Of a stretch of 61,727 bases of DNA, positions 12,080-24,412 are shown in pieces. Every line of letters starts with the position of its first letter. Position 1 is the stretch's first letter. Position numbers and translations under genes: made by a program. The notes below the pieces were generated by a model. That model made no database searches. It was not told the origin of the DNA and worked only from the letters and a program-made list of their open reading frames with translations. The stretch comes from a virus, in the IMG/VR virus record IMGVR_UViG_3300050821_006229, positions 1 to 61,727 of that record. The stretch is one strand, 5' to 3'.

Positions 12080-13066
12080 ATGCCGATCGCCGACCAACTC
12101 CTGACCGATCGCTACGCCCTGTACTGCGGCGACGCGATGGAAGTCTTGCCGACGCTTCCCGCCGGCAGCATCCACCTGTCCATTTACTCCCCGCCGTTCG
12201 CCACCGAGGGCGGCGGTGCGCTGTACCACTACAGCAGCTCCCCGCGCGACCTCTCGAACGCCCGCACCTATCAGGAATTCTGGCGGCACTACGCCTTCAT
12301 CCTCCGCGAGCTGTTCCGCGTCACGATGCCGGGCCGAGAAACCTGCGTCCACTGCACCGACATTCCGAGCGGCAACACCGGTAATGACTGGCTGGTGGAC
12401 TTCCCGGGCCAGATCATCCGCGCCCACAACAAGGCTGGCTGGCGCCACGTCGCGCGGTACCACGCTTGGAAGGAGCCGCTTGCGGTCAGAAACCGCACGA
12501 TGACCAAGGCGCTCGCCCACCAGCAGATCGTCAATGACAGCAGCCGCTGCACCGTCGCCTCCGCCGACTACCTGTTGGTTTTCCGCCGCAAGGGCGTCAA
12601 TCCGGTGCCGATCACGCACCCGCAGGGGCTGATGGAGTACGCCGGCGAACGGGAGATCCCGAAGGAGCTGCTGAGCTATCGCGGCTGGAAGGGCAAGCAG
12701 ACCGAGAACCTGTACAGTCATTGGATTTGGCGGCAGTACGCGAGTTCGTTCTGGGACGACGTGCGCGTTGACCGCGTGCTGCCGTTCAAGCCGGCGCGGG
12801 ACGAGCAGGACGAGAAGCACGTCCACCCGTTGCAGCGCGACGTGATCGAGCGGCTCCTGCACCTGTGGAGCAACCCCGGCGAGGTGGTCGCTGACCCGTT
12901 TGCTGGCGTCGGCTCGACGGTCTACGAGGCGGTGCGGCTCGGCCGGCGCGGGATAGGTGTCGAGTTGAAGCCGTCTTACTTCCGCCAGATGGTCAAGAAC
13001 GTGGCGGCTGCGGAGAGTGAGGCGGCGCGCGGGACCGAGCAGCTGACCATCGAGGCCCTGGCGTGA
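12080..13066 (+). CDS. Site-specific DNA methyltransferase (N6-adenine or N4-cytosine class)
   Basis: 328 residues; GGGAG precedes the ATG. Motif IV appears early as YSPPF, and the AdoMet-binding motif I is C-terminal as DPFAGVGST, followed by GRRGIGVELKPSYF. This IV-before-I order is the beta class of amino-methyltransferases. SPPF rather than DPPY leans towards N4-cytosine but does not decide it. There is no restriction enzyme nearby, so it is probably an orphan enzyme protecting phage DNA from host restriction or marking it. Its reach is cytoplasmic DNA. Confidence 0.9.
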   Translation: MPIADQLLTDRYALYCGDAMEVLPTLPAGSIHLSIYSPPFATEGGGALYHYSSSPRDLSNARTYQEFWRHYAFILRELFRVTMPGRETCVHCTDIPSGNTGNDWLVDFPGQIIRAHNKAGWRHVARYHAWKEPLAVRNRTMTKALAHQQIVNDSSRCTVASADYLLVFRRKGVNPVPITHPQGLMEYAGEREIPKELLSYRGWKGKQTENLYSHWIWRQYASSFWDDVRVDRVLPFKPARDEQDEKHVHPLQRDVIERLLHLWSNPGEVVADPFAGVGSTVYEAVRLGRRGIGVELKPSYFRQMVKNVAAAESEAARGTEQLTIEALA

Positions 13067-16109: not shown

Positions 16110-17169
16110 TGGCGTGACGGTCACCTATACGGTTCCGGCTGATGCATCAGCCCCGGATAGCGTCCAGCCTCCGGCGGCCGGTCGCGTCGTGCCGCACGAG
16201 GAGGTCAAGAAGCGCCGGGGTGCCAAGGCCGCGGAGGCCGCCGCGGCCGAGCCCGCCGCCCAGCGCGCCGAGCACTACCGCGAGCTGGTCTGCGCCTTGA
16301 CCGACGAGGAGGTGGCCCGTAAGTCCAACGAGATGGCCGCCGCGGTCGGCCGCCGCCACGAGATCGAGGCCGAGCGCCGGGAGTACGCCGCGCGCACCAG
16401 GGCGGACCTCAAGGGCCTGACCGGCCAGGTCGAGCAGCTGGCCGAGCAGGTGCGCTCCCGCGCCGAGCAGCGCCCGGTGCGCTGCAAGACGGTCAGCGAC
16501 ACCGACCGAAAGAAAGTCGCGGTGTTCAGGCTGGACACCGAGGAATGCCTCGACGTGCGGGACATGACCGAGCAGGAGGCAGCGCGCGCCCGGGAGGAGC
16601 CGCCGCGCCAGCTGGGCGCCGACGCCGTGGCGGCCATCCGCGCCTGGGAGCGCGACCGTGGCAAGTTCGCCAGGGCAGCCGCCGCGGCCAAGGCGGAGAA
16701 GGACCCGCCGGCCCCGCCGGCCGCGGCGCCGGGGTTCTCCCTGGCGGAGGTGCCGGGCCTGCCGGCCGCGGCGCGCAAGGCGCTCGAGCTGGCCGAGTAC
16801 GGGACGCTCGCGGCGCTGCGGGTCGCGACCTCGCGGGACCTGTGCGCCGTTGCGGGCGTCGGGGAGGCGACGGCGCAGCGGGTGCTCCTGTACGTCGAGG
16901 AGAACTACCCGCCGGCCGCCGGGGAGCCTGCGGTGGTGACGGAGGAGGAGCGGCGGCTGGCGACGGCCGGCGAGATCGACGAGCCCGCCGACGAGGAGCA
17001 GCTGCGCAAGACGGCCGCCGAACTGACGGAGATCCTGGACGGCGAGGGGGAGGAACGGGAGGAGCGCCGCGTGGTGCCTGTCGAGCAGGAGGACCGCGAG
17101 GACGGCGCGGCGCCCGTCGCGGCCAGCGGCAAGGGCGCCGACTTCGACGCGATCTTCGGGGGTGACTAA
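15997..17169 (+). CDS. Coiled-coil and helix-hairpin-helix DNA-associated protein (390 aa)
   Basis: The ATG at 15997 follows AAAGGCGG. The N-terminus is Lys/Arg/Ala-rich (MATKGKRGGAKAPGVKKAAA). The middle is a long coiled coil (RADLKGLTGQVEQLAEQVRS) followed by VRCKTVSDTDRKKVAVFRLD and TEECLDVRDMT, a module typical of short phage proteins. Near residues 250-300 the pattern EVPGLPAAARKALELAEYG then AVAGVGEATAQRVL is a helix-hairpin-helix pair. The C-terminus is acidic and ends DFDAIFGGD, resembling an SSB-type tail. It probably binds DNA or replication partners. A fusion origin is likely. Confidence 0.7.
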   Translation: MATKGKRGGAKAPGVKKAAAERRGRKAKDKVVKEDIGDGVTVTYTVPADASAPDSVQPPAAGRVVPHEEVKKRRGAKAAEAAAAEPAAQRAEHYRELVCALTDEEVARKSNEMAAAVGRRHEIEAERREYAARTRADLKGLTGQVEQLAEQVRSRAEQRPVRCKTVSDTDRKKVAVFRLDTEECLDVRDMTEQEAARAREEPPRQLGADAVAAIRAWERDRGKFARAAAAAKAEKDPPAPPAAAPGFSLAEVPGLPAAARKALELAEYGTLAALRVATSRDLCAVAGVGEATAQRVLLYVEENYPPAAGEPAVVTEEERRLATAGEIDEPADEEQLRKTAAELTEILDGEGEEREERRVVPVEQEDREDGAAPVAASGKGADFDAIFGGD

Positions 17170-18149
17170 TGGACCATGACATGTTCCACGAGCAACGTGA
17201 CGGTGAAACAGCCGCTGGTCGGCCCGCGCCGTCGCTCACCGGCGGCTGCCGCGATGCCTGCGGCGCCAGGGACCTCCTGACGGTCATCAAGGGCGAGCCG
17301 CCCCACCCGGTCGGTCCCTGCCTCTTCCAGCGCGGCCACGGCGGCCGGTGCCGCGACGAGGCCGGCAACTGGTGGCACGGGGTCAACCCGCCGCACGGCT
17401 CGCCGCTTGGTGAGGACTGGCCGAGCATCAGGATACCGGCCCCGCCGCCGCCACCGCCAAGCTGCCCCACCTGCGATCTGCTGAATGGGTGTCCGGTCCA
17501 GGTCGCCGGGGACCTACGGGAGCCTCCTGCCGCCCCGCTTGGCGATCCGGCTTTCATGCGCGCAGCGGTCACGGCGACCGATGAGCAATTACGTGACGCG
17601 GTGTGGCCGCGCGGCCCCGTCCAGGTCGCCGATGACCTGCGGGTGCCGCCGCCGCCAGATGTCATGCTGTACAGGGCGGCCGTCAAGGAGTTGGCCGAGA
17701 TCGGCAAGCTCCTTGACCTGGAAGGTGAGCCCGGCCCTTTCACGGTCCTCGCCGCCGCCCGCGAGCACATCCCCACCTGGCATGACTGCGCCGGGGCCAT
17801 CGGCGCGCTCGCGGCGCTCCTGGGGCTCGAGCCGCCCCTGCCGTCGCCGGACGAGGTGTGCGCGGTCGTGGCCGACCAGTGCCGCGTCTACGGCGAGGCG
17901 TGCGCGGAGATCGCGGCGCTGCGGGAGGAGAACGGCGCCCTGGCGCTGCAACTCAGCCGGCACCTGAAGCGAGATGCCGGGGCCGCATCGACGGCTACCA
18001 CTTTCAGGGTGCCAGACCACCAGCGATGCAACATGCCAGCCCCCTGTGGCAACGGCAATCATTGCAGCCGCACTCGCGGCCATCCCGGCAAGCACCGCGC
18101 CCATATCTGCGACGACCTGGCGGCGGAGGCTTTCAGGGAGTGGTATTGA
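17169..18149 (+). CDS. Hypothetical protein with Cys/His modules (326 aa)
   Basis: The ATG at 17169 shares a base with the preceding TAA. Two related Cys/His segments are visible: VGPCLFQRGHGGRC near residue 50, and HCSRTRGHPGKHRAHICDD near the C-terminus. Both contain Gly-His-x-Gly and are likely metal sites. A direct internal repeat, PVQVAGDLREPP and PVQVADDLRVPP, lies near residues 110-160. A helical segment (CAEIAALREENGALALQL) precedes the C-terminal module. I do not recognise the whole. It looks like a mosaic of short phage modules. Confidence 0.65.
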   Translation: MDHDMFHEQRDGETAAGRPAPSLTGGCRDACGARDLLTVIKGEPPHPVGPCLFQRGHGGRCRDEAGNWWHGVNPPHGSPLGEDWPSIRIPAPPPPPPSCPTCDLLNGCPVQVAGDLREPPAAPLGDPAFMRAAVTATDEQLRDAVWPRGPVQVADDLRVPPPPDVMLYRAAVKELAEIGKLLDLEGEPGPFTVLAAAREHIPTWHDCAGAIGALAALLGLEPPLPSPDEVCAVVADQCRVYGEACAEIAALREENGALALQLSRHLKRDAGAASTATTFRVPDHQRCNMPAPCGNGNHCSRTRGHPGKHRAHICDDLAAEAFREWY

Positions 18150-18715
18150 CCCCGGCAGCCGCCGCCGCTCTCCCCCTGGCCGACCTCGTGGACTCGGCGC
18201 TCGTCCTGCGCGTCGCGGCCCCGGGGTTCGGCCGCATGCTCTGGGCCGGCCGGCTGGCCGCGCCCTCCCGCGTCGCCGGCCTGCTCAACCGGCAAACGAC
18301 GCTCTGGTGGGCCGACGAGCTCGCCGAGGCCCTGGTCGCCTGCGGCCCCGGGAGCGCCAGCGCCGCGGCCGGCCTGTTCGACGAGGCCCCGGCGCCGCTC
18401 CTGGCGATCGACCGCGCCAAGCGCATGTTCGCGGAGGGGACGACCGGCGGCGTTGTCGACCTGTCGCCGGCGGCGCGGGTGGTACTCTTTGGGGAGGGGC
18501 CGAGCATGGCGCGCGAGGAGATCGAGAGGCTATGGGCCGGCTGGGGCGCCGGGGAGCGCCGCGGGTACAAGGCGCGGCGGGCCTGGGCGCTCGGCCGCGT
18601 ACCAGACACCGAGCGGGACCGCCTGGTCGTCGCGGCGTACGCGGCGGCGCGGACGGAGATCGCCAGGAGGCGGACGCTTCAGCGAGGGGGAGAAGCTGAG
18701 CGGGGCGGGTGGTGA
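18146..18715 (+). CDS. Hypothetical protein with rare TTG start (189 aa)
   Basis: TTG at 18146 overlaps the previous stop as TTGA and is preceded by AGGGAG. An in-frame GTG at 18140 is an alternative. The protein (LTPAAAAALPLADLVDSALV) is helical, and its second half is Arg-rich (EIERLWAGWGAGERRGYKAR). No known motif. It is the last undamaged gene before the decayed stretch at 18.7-20.4 kb. Confidence 0.65.
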   Translation: MTPAAAAALPLADLVDSALVLRVAAPGFGRMLWAGRLAAPSRVAGLLNRQTTLWWADELAEALVACGPGSASAAAGLFDEAPAPLLAIDRAKRMFAEGTTGGVVDLSPAARVVLFGEGPSMAREEIERLWAGWGAGERRGYKARRAWALGRVPDTERDRLVVAAYAAARTEIARRRTLQRGGEAERGGW

Positions 18716-18751
18716 AGCCATTGGCGAAATGGTCTACTGCCGGGTGCACCA

Positions 18752-19428
18752 ATGACCGCCCCCACCAAAGCGAGAGGCCCTGGACTGGTACTCTGCCAGG
18801 ATCTCGCGGCGGCGGGCGCTGTGCACCTCGGTGCCTGGTGCACGCGTTGCGAGCGGCTGGTTGAGGGAGGGAAAGGCATGAAAATCCTCAAGCGAGCGCT
18901 TTGCTGGCTTTTTCTGTCCGATCTGCACGCCCCGCTGCCGCGTCGTGGGCTTGCGGCGTCGGCCACGTCGGGCTGCCGTTGTCCGTCGCGGTCGGTGTCG
19001 GCCAGTCCCTCAGCGGGGAGAGTCGGGCCGGTGAGGCCGAGCCTGGAAGCGGCGGTGATCGGGAGACACGGGACGAAGCACGGCGGCAGGGATCTGGCGG
19101 ACGAGGTGGCAGCGGCGAAGACAGGACTGCTGAACCCGCGATGGGTCGAGGCGCTGCAAGGCTGGCCGCTGGGCTTCCTTGGCCTGCCCCCGGAGGTCGC
19201 TGGCCCGCTCCTCGCGGCGCTGCGCAAGAAGCCTGGGAGCCGCCGCGCACCTGCGGACGCATCCCCGGCCGCGCCCACCAGCTGAGGGCGCTGGGGAACG
19301 GCTGGTGCCTGCCGCAGGCGCTGATGGCGTGGCGGATGTTGACGGGTTTGCCATCGCAAGCTGTAGCGGTCGCCGCGACGGACGTGTCTACTGCTCGTGT
19401 CTTGCGCGACGGTGCGGCTAGTGGGTAG
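18752..19428 (+). pseudogene. Remnant of a C5-cytosine DNA methyltransferase C-terminus
   Basis: Typical C-terminal blocks of phage cytosine-5 methylases are present but disordered. In the frame from 18752 one finds LLNPRWVEALQGWPLGF. In the next frame from about 19225 one finds HQLRALGNGWCLPQALMAWR. On the opposite strand at about 18938-19010 one finds DWPTPTATDNGS and TWPTPQAHDAA. Reversing bases 18938-19010 restores one continuous frame through the WPTP repeats into GRVGPVRPSLEAA and the LNPRWVE block. A further one-base shift near 19220-19228 separates the RALGN end. No N-terminal catalytic part (Pro-Cys, Glu-Asn-Val) is visible. Small frames at 18712-18864 and inside this stretch are not convincing genes. 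Confidence 0.65.
18930..19018. repeat. 8-bp inverted repeat bounding an inverted 73-bp segment
   Basis: CCCCGCTG at 18930-18937 and CAGCGGGG at 19011-19018 are exact reverse complements. The 73 bases between them read as methylase-like protein only on the reverse strand. Flipping them keeps the flanking frame open on both sides. The repeat is short, so template switching during replication or amplification is more likely than a dedicated recombinase. Confidence 0.7.
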
Positions 19429-19439
19429 GATCGCGACCA

Positions 19440-19663
19440 GTGCCGCGCGTCTACGCTCCTCCGCTCAAGGTCGTTGCCGGGAAGGCTCGCTGCCCGCAGT
19501 GCGGCCACCGGCGGCCATACCGCCTCTTCGATCCCCAACGCGCAGCAGTGCCACGTCTGCGCCGAGAGGCAACGCGCTTGGGACGTGCAGACCGTGACAC
19601 TCCCCAAAGCTGTCGCCGGCAGAAGCCGAAGCCGAGTTCGAGGCAATCTGCTGGGACCGCTGA
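19440..19663 (+). pseudogene. Zinc-ribbon protein gene with two C4-run frameshifts
   Basis: A GTG at 19440 opens MPRVYAPPLKVVAGKARCPQ followed by CGHRRPYRLFDP. The frame then breaks at a CCCC run (19533-19536). Reading it as CCC gives NAQQCHVCAERQRAWDVQTV. A second CCCC run (19602-19605) read as CCC gives LSPAEAEAEFEAICWDR and a TGA at 19661-19663. The combined product, about 73 residues, is a sensible CxxC ... CxxC zinc ribbon with an acidic C-terminal helix. Two +1 errors in identical homopolymers suggest sequencing error or recent decay. Confidence 0.55.
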
Positions 19664-19774
19664 AAATCTCCTACCGGGTGAAACTCTCTCTGAGGGTTGC
19701 CCCGATATGACAGGGGCCTGCGTGGAGGCCCGCCGGAAGTACAGAAATCCCCCGCAGTGTGCGGCTGCGGGGGG

Positions 19775-19799
19775 AACAGGGATTTGGCGATCCTGTTTT
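19775..19799 (+). terminator. Possible attenuator-type terminator hairpin
   Basis: AACAGG(G)AT pairs with ATCCTGTT (19790-19797) around a six-base loop and is followed by a short T-run (19796-19799). Its left arm overlaps GGATTT (19780-19785), which can instead pair with AAATCC at 19745-19750. This gives two mutually exclusive folds. Confidence 0.35.
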
Positions 19800-20288
19800 C
19801 GGGCAACGGCGACGATATCAGCATTCGCCGCGACACGCAAGGCCCTGCCCGTGGCCGCAGAGGAATCCGTAAATTCATGGATGACCGAGGTTGACAGGCG
19901 ACGGCCAGGTGGCGATCCTGGAGCGTGTCGGGGCCAGCTTTCAAACCGTGTCGAGCAACCCCCGGAAACAAACCTTGCCGACGTGCACGGCGGGGCCGGG
20001 ACTTGTGCACGACGCCGCTGGATATCCGGCCGCTTTGACCCCATTTCCGCCCTGGAATGCAAACCGCGTCGGCATGGCGCGGATACTAAGACCTCGGTAC
20101 GGACCTCGAAAGCGGTTCCATTTCTCACGGTAGCAGCGTGCGGCGCCACCCGGCAGGTTCGGCTGGCGCAGCTCCTGGGTGGGTGGGCTGTGCTCACGGG
20201 AACCGCCGAAGGCGGTCAAGGGCGTCCATTCTCCAGGAGCTTGTCAGGGTCAACCGCCTTCGCTGGCTGACGCCAGCTCGGCGGCAGG

Positions 20289-20317
20289 CTACGCGCTTCG
20301 CGCGTGGTGTTTTCTTT
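20289..20317 (+). terminator. Rho-independent terminator
   Basis: CTACGCG (20289-20295), loop CTTCG, and CGCGTGG (20301-20307) form a seven-pair stem with one G-T pair. TGTTTTCTTT follows at 20308-20317. It is the best terminator-like signal in the rightward half of the early region. Confidence 0.6.
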
Positions 20318-20443
20318 GGCCTTGGGCCGGCGTAGCGCGCTGCAAGCGTAGAAGAAAGGGAAAATGGGAAAGCTGCACCCAGACGCCGCGGCACCAAACC
20401 CCATTGACACCGCCGCGACGATTGAGCGATGATCGGAGGCACG

Positions 20444-20581
20444 ATGGGGAGCATCAGGCAGACGGCGTGGTGGCGCAGGGTGCGGTTGCTCAAGGGCTAC
20501 CGCACCGGCGCATTCGTTTACCGCCCCGCTGACAGCACCCTGCTGACGCTCTGTCGCTTGGCGGTCAGGCGGATTCTCTAA
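20444..20581 (+). CDS. Small basic protein (45 aa)
   Basis: A strong CGGAGG lies just before the ATG at 20444. The peptide begins MGSIRQTAWWRRVRLLKGYR and continues with TGAFVYRPADSTLLTLCRL. It is strongly basic, with Trp-Trp near the start. The stop TAA overlaps the next ATG (TAATG). Upstream, 20318-20443 contains no gene; TTGACA at 20404 lacks a well-placed -10 box. Confidence 0.55.
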   Translation: MGSIRQTAWWRRVRLLKGYRTGAFVYRPADSTLLTLCRLAVRRIL

Positions 20582-21045
20582 TGCGCCGCCACGTCCCCGA
20601 AGGCGAGAAGCATTTCGATTCTTACGAGCGCGACCACGATCTCGACAGCGTCGTGATCTGGCTCGAACTCGTCAACCTACGCAAGGAGATCAGGCAAATG
20701 GCAGACGCACTCGACGGCATCCGCTCCGCGCTGGCAGCCGAGGACACGCTCCTCGGCCAGGTCGCAACCTTCCTCGCCGGCGTCCCCGCCGCCACGGCCG
20801 CCGCCGTCGCCGCGAGCGAGGCCGGCGACACCGCCGGCGCCGCGGCCATCCAGGCCGATATCCAGGCCCACACGGCCACGCTGTCCGCCGCCCTCGCGGC
20901 CGCAGGCCCGCAGGCACCGGCAGGCACGACCACGCCGACGCCGGCCGTCCCGCCTGTCATGGCACCCGCACCCGCGAGCACGCCCGCGGCACCCGCCGCG
21001 CCGGCCAGCGGCTCACCGGCCAACCCGCCGACCTCGACGCCGTAG
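20581..21045 (+). CDS. Hypothetical protein with Ala/Pro-rich tail (154 aa)
   Basis: Two starts are possible. The ATG at 20581 overlaps the previous stop (MRRHVPEGEKHFDSYERDHD). An internal ATG at 20698 has AAGGAG upstream and begins MADALDGIRSALAAEDTLLG. The middle is an Ala-rich helix. The last 55 residues are Ala/Pro/Thr-rich (TTTPTPAVPPVMAPAPASTP) and surely disordered. No function recognised. The shorter product alone resembles small phage helical proteins, so both could be made. Confidence 0.6.
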   Translation: MRRHVPEGEKHFDSYERDHDLDSVVIWLELVNLRKEIRQMADALDGIRSALAAEDTLLGQVATFLAGVPAATAAAVAASEAGDTAGAAAIQADIQAHTATLSAALAAAGPQAPAGTTTPTPAVPPVMAPAPASTPAAPAAPASGSPANPPTSTP

Positions 21046-21055
21046 GCAGAACCTT

Positions 21056-21250
21056 ATGGCGCTCGAGGTCGGAAACGTCGTGCGGCTCAACAGCGGCGGG
21101 CCGCCCATGACGGTCGAGAAGGTAGACGGTCCGCTCATCACTTGCCGGTGGTTCTGGCCGCAGCCCGCAGGCGATTGGGTGGCGGAGGCACCGGTAGCCT
21201 CTGACGACTTCCCCGCCGAGTGCCTCGCGCTGGTGACGCCGGCAGCATGA
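21056..21250 (+). CDS. YodC-like (DUF2158) small protein (64 aa)
   Basis: MALEVGNVVRLNSGGPPMTV, then EKVDGPLITCRWFW and a final FPAECLALV, reproduce the DUF2158/YodC pattern (GD/GN-VV-x-L-x-SGGP-x-MTV, Cys-x-Trp-Phe). This small beta-barrel family occurs in bacteria and phages and has no known biochemical role. The SD is weak. Confidence 0.75.
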   Translation: MALEVGNVVRLNSGGPPMTVEKVDGPLITCRWFWPQPAGDWVAEAPVASDDFPAECLALVTPAA

Positions 21251-21570
21251 GACTCGCCCCCCTCGCCGACTGGCTGGCCACGCAGCTCGCGAACCGCGAG
21301 GCCAGCCAGTTCGTGTGCGCCTGCGCCTGGGCCGAGGTCGCCCCCGGCATCCGAGAAGCCGCGCGCTGGCGTCGGGGAGAAGTCCCGGCACTCCTGGCCG
21401 CGTGGCGGCGCTGGCCCCGCAGCAGAACCTTGCCGCGGCAAGCCGAAACCTTGGCGGAGACTCCGAAGTTTCCGCTGGACCATCCTGGAAACCGGGACCG
21501 GATTCGCACCCACCTGGAATCAGGGGACGTTGCAGCCGCCCAGGCTGTCATCCTCGAATCATTGGCGTGA
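21247..21570 (+). CDS. Hypothetical protein (107 aa)
   Basis: The ATG at 21247 overlaps the previous stop (ATGA). The protein MRLAPLADWLATQLANREAS is helical, with a Trp/Arg-rich middle (WRRGEVPALLAAWRRWPR) and a short acidic end. No recognised domain. The stop overlaps the GTG of the HNH gene. Confidence 0.6.
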   Translation: MRLAPLADWLATQLANREASQFVCACAWAEVAPGIREAARWRRGEVPALLAAWRRWPRSRTLPRQAETLAETPKFPLDHPGNRDRIRTHLESGDVAAAQAVILESLA

Positions 21571-21950
21571 GCCCCCATGCGCCGCTACGTCCATGCAGGC
21601 AGCCGGGGTGCGCCGCGCTCGTCGCGGGCGGCTACTGCGATGAGCACCGCGGCGCCGCCGTCCAAGTGTACGACCAGCAGCGCGGGTCCTCCGCCGTTCG
21701 TGGCTACGGCGCCCGCCACCGCTGGTGGCGACGCGTCGTCCTCGCGCTCCACCCGGTCTGCACGCGGTGCAGGCGCGCGACGTCCACCGTCGCGCACCAC
21801 GTCGTCGCGCTCGAGGACGGCGGCGGCTGGGAGATCGAGAACGGGACGGGCGTTTGCCACGGCTGCCACAACCAGCTCACCGCCCAGGAGGGCGCCCTCC
21901 GACGGGATGGGAGCGCCGGGGTGGTACCACCGGGACCCAGGGGGGAGTAA
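21567..21950 (+). CDS. HNH endonuclease 1 (127 aa)
   Basis: GTG start at 21567 with GTGA overlap. The protein opens with a CRQPGCAALVAGGYCDEH zinc motif, then DQQRGSSAVRGYGARHRWWR, the signature lead-in of phage HNH nucleases. The catalytic part is VCTRCRRATSTVAHHVVALE and then NGTGVCHGCHNQLT. It lies upstream of the terminases. Such HNH proteins often assist DNA packaging in HK97-like phages. A second HNH gene follows, so which one acts in packaging is unclear. Confidence 0.85.
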   Translation: MSPHAPLRPCRQPGCAALVAGGYCDEHRGAAVQVYDQQRGSSAVRGYGARHRWWRRVVLALHPVCTRCRRATSTVAHHVVALEDGGGWEIENGTGVCHGCHNQLTAQEGALRRDGSAGVVPPGPRGE

Positions 21951-21970
21951 GATCCCCCAGCAGGCGAGCC

Positions 21971-21998
21971 GCGCGACCGGCGTGCGGTCGCGCTTGTT
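21971..21998 (+). terminator. Hairpin after HNH endonuclease 1, terminator-like
   Basis: GCGCGACC (21971-21978), a seven-base loop and GGTCGCGC (21986-21993) form a perfect eight-pair stem followed by TTGTT. The T-run is weak, so it may slow rather than end transcription. It separates the two HNH genes. Confidence 0.4.
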
Positions 21999-22029
21999 CG
22001 GCCGCAAGATGGATTGGAGGTGATTTTAG

Positions 22030-22533
22030 GTGCTCGCTCCTGTTGCCGTTGGCAAGCCTTGCGCCATGTGCCGTGTGGCTCCGCGTCTTAAGGGGAGGTG
22101 CTATTGCCGCTCATGCCGCGCACTTGCGCGAACGATCCGACCGGACATGTCGGCCCGGCCGTGTCGGCGCTGCGGGACGGTTTTCACCCCCGCTGCCGGC
22201 CCTGGCCGCCCGCGGCTTTTTTGCTCGGATAATTGCTGCTACGTCTACGCCAAGAAGATCGCCAGATCAACCCGTCGCGTCCGCGAGCGCGGTATTTCAC
22301 ATGAGAATTTTCACCCTCGCGAGATCTACGAGCGCGATGGCTGGACTTGCCAACTCTGCCATTTACCTGTTCGGCGCGCCACCGGCAATCGGTACCATCC
22401 CGAGGCGCCGTCGATCGACCACGTAATCCCGCTGTCGCGTGGCGGCCTGCATACTCGGGCTAACGTCCAGTGTGCGCACCATCGCTGTAATTCGCGCAAG
22501 GCTGCGACGCTGCCACAGGAGGTCGCCGCGTGA
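22030..22533 (+). CDS. HNH endonuclease 2 with N-terminal zinc fingers (167 aa)
   Basis: GTG at 22030, preceded by GGAGGTGA, the strongest Shine-Dalgarno sequence in this area. N-terminal Cys pairs (CAMCRVAPRLKGRCYCRSC and CRRCG ... LFCSDNC) form zinc-binding modules. The nuclease core is EIYERDGWTCQLCHLPV, PSIDHVIPLSRGG and NVQCAHHRCNSRKA, a canonical His-Asn-His arrangement. Base composition is noticeably AT-richer than its neighbours, which suggests a mobile (homing-like) gene. It is distinct in sequence from HNH endonuclease 1. Confidence 0.9.
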   Translation: MLAPVAVGKPCAMCRVAPRLKGRCYCRSCRALARTIRPDMSARPCRRCGTVFTPAAGPGRPRLFCSDNCCYVYAKKIARSTRRVRERGISHENFHPREIYERDGWTCQLCHLPVRRATGNRYHPEAPSIDHVIPLSRGGLHTRANVQCAHHRCNSRKAATLPQEVAA

Positions 22534-22823
22534 GCCACCGCCCCGACCCCCTCCCCTTCCGCAGCGCCCGCCGCGCCCAGGCGGAGTCTATTCGCGCCTC
22601 CCGGCTGGCCCTGGCGGTCGAGGAGGCCGCGGCGCGCCTGGCGCAGGTGAACGTCCCGACGCCTCCGGCCAGCAGCCACCTGTTGCTCGCCACGGTTGAG
22701 CTGCAGCAGGCCGTCGCGGCCCGGTGGGCGCGGCACCTGCGGTCGCGGCTGGGGCTGCCGGAGGCGGCTGGGAGTGCGGGGCCGTGCGGGGCCGGCGGGG
22801 GGGGGCGGGGGGGCGGGACGTGA
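22530..22823 (+). CDS. Hypothetical protein (97 aa)
   Basis: GTG start with GTGA overlap. A helical protein (FRSARRAQAESIRASRLALA) ending in a low-complexity Gly stretch encoded by long G-runs (about 22795-22815). Those runs are risky for sequencing, and the true C-terminus may differ. Function unknown. Confidence 0.55.
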   Translation: MSHRPDPLPFRSARRAQAESIRASRLALAVEEAAARLAQVNVPTPPASSHLLLATVELQQAVAARWARHLRSRLGLPEAAGSAGPCGAGGGGRGGGT

Positions 22824-22956
22824 GGCGAATGATCGACCTTTCGCACCTGCCGCTTTTTCGGCGCCGGCCGGTGTTTTACGCGCTGTTGCCGCTCCTTTCC
22901 AGCGTGATGGTCAGAGCTTCTGGCGCGGGTTGCCGGCCGGGAGGTTGCCGGCGTGA
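22820..22956 (+). other. Probable small gene with uncertain frame
   Basis: A GTG at 22820 overlaps the previous stop and reads MRRMIDLSHLPLFRRRPVFY, but that frame runs deep into the next gene. A second frame ends exactly at 22956 with the usual GTGA junction and reads DGQSFWRGLPAGRLPA. A coding gene with a frame error, possibly caused by the upstream G-runs, is the best explanation. Confidence 0.3.
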
Positions 22957-23189
22957 GCGCCACGTTGACCCAGAAGGGACGCCGCGGCCGCAGGCTCAAG
23001 CGTCGGCGCTCGACGCTGACCGAGGTGCTGCTTGGAGCATGGGCGCTCCGGGAGCGACCGCCGCTCTCTCCGATCACCGCTCGCTATTTGCCGCGCGTCG
23101 TGCTTGCCCGCATCGCCGATCTCGAGTGCTGGCCGGCGGAGGTCCGCGCCAGCTACGGGCTTGCGACAGGCGGTGAGGGGCGCGCCTGA
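22953..23189 (+). CDS. Small basic hypothetical protein (78 aa)
   Basis: GTG at 22953. The first 20 residues are highly basic (MSATLTQKGRRGRRLKRRRS), followed by TEVLLGAWALRERPPL and a helical C-terminus. It could bind DNA. It sits directly before the small terminase with a one-base TGATG overlap. Confidence 0.6.
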   Translation: MSATLTQKGRRGRRLKRRRSTLTEVLLGAWALRERPPLSPITARYLPRVVLARIADLECWPAEVRASYGLATGGEGRA

Positions 23190-23680
23190 TGCCGCCCGGC
23201 CCCATCCCGCAACCCACGGCCCTCCGCGTCCTGCGCGGCAACGCGGCCAAGCGCCCGCTGCCCCGCCGGGAGCCGAAGCCGGCGCGCGGGATGCCGCCCT
23301 GCCCGCGCCGGCTGTCGCGGGTGGAGCGGGCCGCCTGGCGCCGGTTCGGCAAGCTCCTGTGCGGCATGCAGGTCCTGACGGTCGCGGACGGCCCGCAGTT
23401 GGAGCTGCTGTGCAGCACGTATGCTGAGTGGCGGGAGTGGGACCTGGCGTGCAAGGCGCGGGGGCGGGAGCGGACGTACAAGCCGGCGCCGTCGCAGCGG
23501 GGGCGCGAGGTGACGGTGGCGTACCCGGAGTACGCGCTGCGGGCGGAGGCGGCCAAGCGGCTGCGGGCGCTGCTCGCGGATTTCGGCATGAACCCGAGCG
23601 CCCGGGCGCGCGTCACGACGGCGCCGGGGGGCGACGGGGATGGGGAGGGGGCGGGATGGCAACCAGGGAGGAAGGGATGA
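23189..23680 (+). CDS. Terminase small subunit, P27 family
   Basis: 163 residues. The opening PPGPIPQPTALRVLRGNAAK and RPLPRREPKP, the Leu-Thr-x-Ala-Asp motif (VLTVADGPQLELLC), and the terminal FGMNPSARARV are diagnostic of P27-like small terminases. These bind phage DNA and hand it to the large subunit. One gene cluster of tiny proteins separates it from the large subunit, which is unusual but seen in related genomes. The C-terminal Gly/Glu tail is disordered. Confidence 0.9.
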   Translation: MPPGPIPQPTALRVLRGNAAKRPLPRREPKPARGMPPCPRRLSRVERAAWRRFGKLLCGMQVLTVADGPQLELLCSTYAEWREWDLACKARGRERTYKPAPSQRGREVTVAYPEYALRAEAAKRLRALLADFGMNPSARARVTTAPGGDGDGEGAGWQPGRKG

Positions 23681-23847
23681 CCGAGCGCGACAAGGCGTAC
23701 CGGGCGATGCGGATGGCGTGGCTGCGGCGGGAGTGCCCGGCGCTGTTCCGCCCCGGCGTGGTGTTCACGGAGGATCAGAAGGCCGCCATCCGAGCGATGC
23801 CGCAGGGCCAGGCGGTCGCGGCCATCCTGGCGAAGGTGGCGCCGTGA
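23677..23847 (+). CDS. Small hypothetical protein (56 aa)
   Basis: The ATG at 23677 overlaps the terminase stop and is preceded by GGGAGGAA. The peptide is MTERDKAYRAMRMAWLRREC then PALFRPGVVFTEDQKAAIRA. Helical; no motif beyond one Cys. Confidence 0.65.
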   Translation: MTERDKAYRAMRMAWLRRECPALFRPGVVFTEDQKAAIRAMPQGQAVAAILAKVAP

Positions 23848-24242
23848 CCGCCAAGCCCCTGCCACCCGCCGCCAAGCCGGCCCCGCTCCCCCTCACGGAC
23901 GCGCAGCGCACCGTCCTGCGCGAGGTCGCGGAGGAGTGGGTGCGGCGGGACGCGGAGGAGCCGATCCGACCGCCGGCGGGTCTGCGCGGCGCGAGAGGCG
24001 AGGCCCCCGTCGCGGCGTTCTTCTACGAGCTGTACGCCGAGTACGGGGAGTGGGGAGTGCTGGCGCGGTTCCGGGTGCCGGCCGGTGGCGCTTACCGCAC
24101 CTTCACGGGGACGCTAGAGGCCACAGCGCAGCGGCGCCTCGCCTGCGTGCGGGCTGTCGGGCTGCTGTGCCAGGAGGTCGCGCGGCTGGACGGGGAGGCG
24201 CGGACGGCCGGGGCGCTGGCCGGCGGGGAGGTGCCGCGGTGA
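23844..24242 (+). CDS. Hypothetical protein (132 aa)
   Basis: GTG with GTGA overlap. After a Pro/Ala-rich start, a helical domain contains FFYELYAEYGEWGVLARFRV and YRTFTGTLEATAQRRLACVR. No known family. It lies between terminase genes, perhaps a packaging accessory. Confidence 0.6.
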   Translation: MTAKPLPPAAKPAPLPLTDAQRTVLREVAEEWVRRDAEEPIRPPAGLRGARGEAPVAAFFYELYAEYGEWGVLARFRVPAGGAYRTFTGTLEATAQRRLACVRAVGLLCQEVARLDGEARTAGALAGGEVPR

Positions 24243-24412
24243 GGCAGGCGGCGGTGAACCTGGTTGAGGGTGGGACGCGCCAGGAGGCTGCGGAGAAGGC
24301 TGTCGCCGCGGCCGTGCGGCCAACTCTCGGCAAGGTCAAGGCGATGCTCGCCGGCCGCGATGTGACGCTGCGGATGCAGCGCGGCGCCGACGGCGTGTGG
24401 GAGTGGCGGTGA
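24239..24412 (+). CDS. Small helical protein (57 aa)
   Basis: GTG with GTGA overlap. MRQAAVNLVEGGTRQEAAEK and a short beta-like end (DVTLRMQRGADGVWEWR). Unknown. The run of tiny coupled genes here is typical of this genome. Confidence 0.6.
   Translation: MRQAAVNLVEGGTRQEAAEKAVAAAVRPTLGKVKAMLAGRDVTLRMQRGADGVWEWR

Follow-up and report, generated by a model that had tools for sequence, protein, structure and literature searches.

The window is the whole stretch of viral DNA analyzed here (IMGVR_UViG_3300050821_006229, positions 1-61,727; 71% G+C), and the site of interest lies in the piece spanning 18,752-19,428. Comparison with related phage sequences revealed a remnant of a C5-cytosine methyltransferase (MTase) gene in which a block at 18918-19057, reading ...DWPTPTATDNGSPTWPTPQAHDAAAGRADR on the reverse strand, is inverted with respect to the relatives. 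The block is preceded by a left flank (18716-18917, plus strand) that is open in the frame continuing after a 140-bp flip, and is followed on the plus strand by the forward continuation of the WPTP frame (19058-19285), a +1-type, PHROG_1008-like frame that runs from IGRHGTKHGGRDLADEV to LNPRWVEALQGWPLGF and on to its stop; this assignment is based on tblastn matches to relatives and a profile match from model position 63 on. The C-terminal C5 MTase motif X (RLxALGN) is matched by HQLRALGNGWCLPQ (19276-19317, plus strand) in the MTase frame, which is open to 19428, as judged from the translation, from PHROG_1008 positions 294-328 and from tblastn matches to L113-L116. The relatives carry the WPTP-frame elements on one strand in the order WPTPQAHDAA-x-G-xxxx-VGRxGTxHGGxNLxD-...-LNPxWVEWLMGxP.

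The original prediction had described an inverted segment inside a methylase remnant at this site. Its sequence elements were present, namely the arms CCCCGCTG (18930-18937) and CAGCGGGG (19011-19018) with a 73-nt spacer, the reverse-strand peptides DWPTPTATDNGS and TWPTPQAHDAA, the plus-strand flanking blocks GRVGPVRPSLEAA and LLNPRWVEALQGWP, and a frame of 177 residues that stays open when 18938-19010 is flipped. Comparison of the flipped translation with methylases, which it had also proposed, revealed real similarity to methylase-associated proteins, with more viral loci and a higher score than for the unflipped translation. Seven viral contigs were matched in a search with the flipped protein, and tblastn analysis of 143 fetched loci gave matches in 104/143 for the flipped protein versus 48/143 for the unflipped protein, figures that serve as a comparison and not as a rate since the loci were chosen with this family. 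The PHROG_1008 profile also matched the 140-bp-flipped frame weakly (E = 0.0026).

The borders were located by scoring flips (~11,000 in total, of which 5250 came from a fine grid and about 5900 from a wider grid) against a profile built from 57 relatives, the window itself being left out. The best flip was 18919-19056, with a score of 71.3 bits that was equaled by the flip of 18918-19057. The segment 18938-19010, as bounded in the original prediction, scored ~51-52 bits, the unflipped sequence 38-39 bits, and the highest of the dinucleotide-preserving shuffles of the 140-bp block 49.9 bits (n = 2000). Scores from a second profile, built in the MTase frame from 44 relatives, were 24.6 with the 140-bp flip, 1.2 with the 73-bp flip, -6.6 with no flip and at most 3.1 among the shuffles; as both profiles cover one stretch of DNA in different frames, they are only partly independent. 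The inversion itself was thus backed in two overlapping frames, but its extent was closer to 18918-19057 than to the segment first drawn, and its ends carry no symmetric repeat.

The same borders emerged from the alignments. The reverse-strand match to the profile ends at position 62 (WPTPQAHDAAAGRADR) and that of the forward sequence IGRHGTKHGGRDLADEV (IGRHGTKHGG) begins at position 63, so that the two halves abut with no gap, and the junctions obtained from the profile-scored flips are 18918 and 19058. In the aligned relatives, HDAAxG and VGRxGTKHGG are always separated by four residues; flipping 18938-19010 leaves nine surplus residues (RVGPVRPSL) in this fixed spacing, an insertion absent from the aligned relatives. 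In the MTase frame, the 140-bp flip restores ASPRR-(11 residues)-RDEARR, and the relative L006 has ASPRC-(11)-RDEARR. By homology, the left end at 18918 and the forward restart at 19058 are fixed to a few bases, while the share of 19011-19057 that belongs to the inverted block is not, because this stretch does not align.

Two features that had drawn attention to the segment turned out to be poor guides to it. The first was that both orientations are open, which was correct, but among random 140-bp blocks, 2657/3000 have one or more open frames on each strand; such openness is expected by chance in DNA of this G+C content and carries little weight. The other was the 8-bp inverted repeat, taken as the boundary of the segment. 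An 8-bp inverted match with a spacer of 30-142 nt starts at 546 places in the window, and a repeat in positions like those seen here occurred in 123/3000 random 140-bp blocks (4%). The left arm lies inside the block, both arms lie off the homology axis and are judged to be coincidental, and the repeat was rejected as mediator of the inversion since it failed in both reading-frame profiles. No complementary run of at least 3 was found on the homology axis. The sole junction repeat is a 6-bp pair, CCGATC at the left junction (18918-18923) and GATCGG at the right junction (19057-19062), which is 5 nt off axis and may have served as a switch site. Inverted repeats and frame preservation in GC-rich DNA can therefore point to the wrong breakpoints, which were corrected here by homology in two frames.

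The catalytic half of the MTase gene is gone, and unrelated sequence adjoins the block. No match to the PF00145 catalytic domain (PCQ and ENV motifs) was detected in the window at E values up to 10, and the 202 bp to the left of the block gave no tblastn match in the 143 loci, including the MTase/WPTP relatives. The absent catalytic half and a left flank with no relatives identify the gene as a 3' remnant. A match to DUF3136 (PF11334) was seen at 18833-18946, spanning the left junction, with a score just above the cut-off (27.7 bits for the whole stretch). The flank alone scored 18.4 bits, below the cut-off, and this drop indicates that the match lies partly within the inverted block; a DUF3136 gene across the left border was rejected, and the match is treated as chance or at best as a gene of the flank. 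No Resolvase (PF00239), Phage_integrase (PF00589) or Transposase_20 (PF02371) was found in the window.

Several other observations were made in the surrounding sequence. The remnant lies in a 3.4-kb stretch (17169-20580) where, unlike in most of the rest of the window, no gene is called by a simple model based on codon usage. Downstream, at 19440-19710, a zinc-ribbon-like protein (CPQCGHRRPYRLFDP... and AQQCHVCAERQ) is seemingly split between two frames near 19540, as a change of one base within a C run would produce. At 12080-13066 lies another DNA methyltransferase gene, seemingly intact (PHROG_67, E = 1e-37) and next to a helicase gene, so the phage is not devoid of a methyltransferase. The region 16500-24400 had no DNA-level relative in the phage collection, one scan of a genome collection returned just three distant relatives, and searches with exact patterns taken from the block and the right flank turned up no further viral contig that covers the site. 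Among the listed relatives, the same phage is represented by L009 alone, which covers the terminase region and not the site. This contig shares 3390 bp of identical sequence with the window (L009:3390) and then changes abruptly, at window 26705, to an aquaporin-like gene; it is probably chimeric.

We favor, with somewhat better than even confidence, the interpretation that a phage C5-cytosine MTase gene survives here as a non-functional 3' remnant, together with an overlapping open frame, and that the block within it was inverted once, illegitimately, and with no reversible switch. The inversion would most likely have arisen in a single event, through illegitimate recombination or through two template switches involving little microhomology, possibly at GATCGG with a 5-nt slip. 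The same event perhaps deleted the MTase catalytic half, in which case the block would be an inversion at a deletion junction, or a deletion-inversion scar. The inverted block may have persisted because the gene was already dead, and reversible switching would play no part in such an explanation. Against a one-off scar stand the partial dependence of the two profiles and the distance of the relatives, none of which is near enough for an alignment of the left flank that would reveal the state before the event. The remaining coding parts are also well conserved, which suggests that the gene may not be long dead. An artefact, moreover, would give an identical picture in the contig sequence.

Such an artefact, a chimera of library amplification or assembly in which a 3' end switched strands and then returned while the real phage has the other orientation, is a serious contender that we regard as distinctly less probable. 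Of MDA chimeras, 85% are inversions, most of them joined at complementarity of at least 2 bp (Lasken and Stockwell 2007, PMC1855051), and the inverted joins, short microhomology and short distance seen here resemble them; the conservation of coding parts on both sides of the block and the abrupt departure of L009, which suggests that chimeras or variants exist for this phage, also fit. Unlike those chimeras, however, the site needs two joins that restore the original direction, and both jumps, 140 bp apart, must dominate the assembled reads. The comparison with MDA also presupposes that the sample was amplified, and rearrangement of the locus is in any case evident from the lost catalytic half. 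Whether scar or artefact, the inversion itself is minor.

Template switching inverts the spacers of inverted repeats in yeast coding genes (Abraham and Hazkani-Covo 2021, PMC8604942), in cases with perfect arms of >9 bp, 2-5 changed bp and spacers of at most 70 bp. The site resembles these cases in that a short coding segment is inverted in place, the likely route being passage of the polymerase to the other strand and back, and differs in that the segment is ~140 bp and has no symmetric arms. The event as first drawn, a template switch between the 8-bp arms that inverts just the 73-bp spacer, is very improbable: the arms are perfect, the frame is kept and the score exceeds that of the unflipped sequence, but against the 140-bp flip it loses ~16-20 bits in one frame and 23 bits in the other, it needs the surplus insertion, and the reverse strand still matches past the left arm (GRADR). 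The suggestion that the segment is phase-variable fared no better. Intragenic DNA inversions, in which the inverted segment lies within a gene, are a recognised class. The block shares this location inside a gene, and its frames are open in both orientations. This openness is expected by chance, however, and the true ends differ from those of intragenic invertons and of the invertons in the PhaseFinder literature (PMC11892184) in having no repeats, with none of the three recombinase families detected in the window. The remnant holds no complete MTase, and hence no catalytic domain to switch, and the block in its present orientation encodes no known protein. An inverton that swaps one peptide for another is the least likely of these explanations.

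The peptides on either side of the right junction had been read as the C-terminus of a methylase. They are methylase-associated, but the WPTP and LNPxWVEWLMG blocks sit in the MTase +1 frame in complete relatives (L002-L008, L054, L056, L057 and L060-L062; 42 to 66% G+C). In L208, for example, the MTase frame at 1998-2903 matches PHROG_363 (E = 1.6e-71) and the +1 frame of the same DNA, at 2005-2898, matches PHROG_1008 (E = 8.4e-29). For both frames of this pair, alignment to the remnant covers the C-terminal part; the remnant differs from the pair in lacking the catalytic half and in carrying the inverted block.

This overlap was examined in 80 viral contigs (L205-L284) fetched by the catalytic half of one MTase alone, and so with no selection for the +1 frame. 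These analyses revealed 0.34 +1 stops per MTase gene compared with 4.51 in within-gene synonymous codon shuffles (n = 80), and 67/80 genes had none; the 80 genes are mutually related and the statistics carry that kinship. In the control set of 156 other genes of the same loci, +1 stops were as frequent as in shuffles (10.21 versus 10.21), and no stop depletion was found in the +2 frame. The catalytic part was free of +1 stops in 74/74 genes (4.6 expected), and in the C-terminal part +1 stops occurred at 0.17 of expectation. When scored against a profile from 11 other +1 proteins, the real +1 frame exceeded all 50 shuffles in 77/77 cases. Fourfold sites in the catalytic half differed at 0.43-0.61 for pairs under 90% identity and are thus not fully saturated, which makes the +1 profile similarity alone weaker evidence than the absence of stops. 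In many loci the MTase start and a +1-frame ATG are 4 nt apart (RTGAATGAG).

At the level of sequence, there is good support for dual coding in the sense of a constraint that keeps the frame open, and a second functional protein from the +1 frame may be inferred. The data suggest that PHROG_1008 is a second gene, nested within PHROG_363 and conserved. We consider it moderately probable that a C5 MTase (PHROG_363) and a separately started PHROG_1008 form a widespread phage pair, encoded by the same DNA, with the +1 frame extending over almost the whole MTase and being selected and translated, and that the inversion scrambled both. If the +1 frame is a real gene, it would constitute a nested overlap some 300 codons long, concealed in annotation by the use of a single name, and would go some way towards accounting for the middle region of these MTases, which is odd and poorly conserved. 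As a by-product of the analysis, it could matter more than the inversion. No description of an overlapping C5 MTase gene pair was found in the literature searched, a scope outside which most subscription journals lay. Structure prediction for the L208 +1 protein gave a mean pLDDT of 54 and a pTM of 0.27 and was not interpretable.

The PHROG_1008 (WPTP) protein is usually also labelled 'DNA methyltransferase', and in Paenibacillus phage Bloom both frames are annotated as cytosine methyltransferases. A different arrangement was observed in Mycobacterium phages Bora and Priya and Streptomyces phage Vash (L286-L288), where the catalytic half ends after motif VIII, its +1 frame has stops, and the PHROG_1008 part forms a gene of its own in a different frame. 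Both genes are annotated as DNA methylase or methyltransferase in these phages, and the arrangement could represent a split enzyme or a frameshift product.
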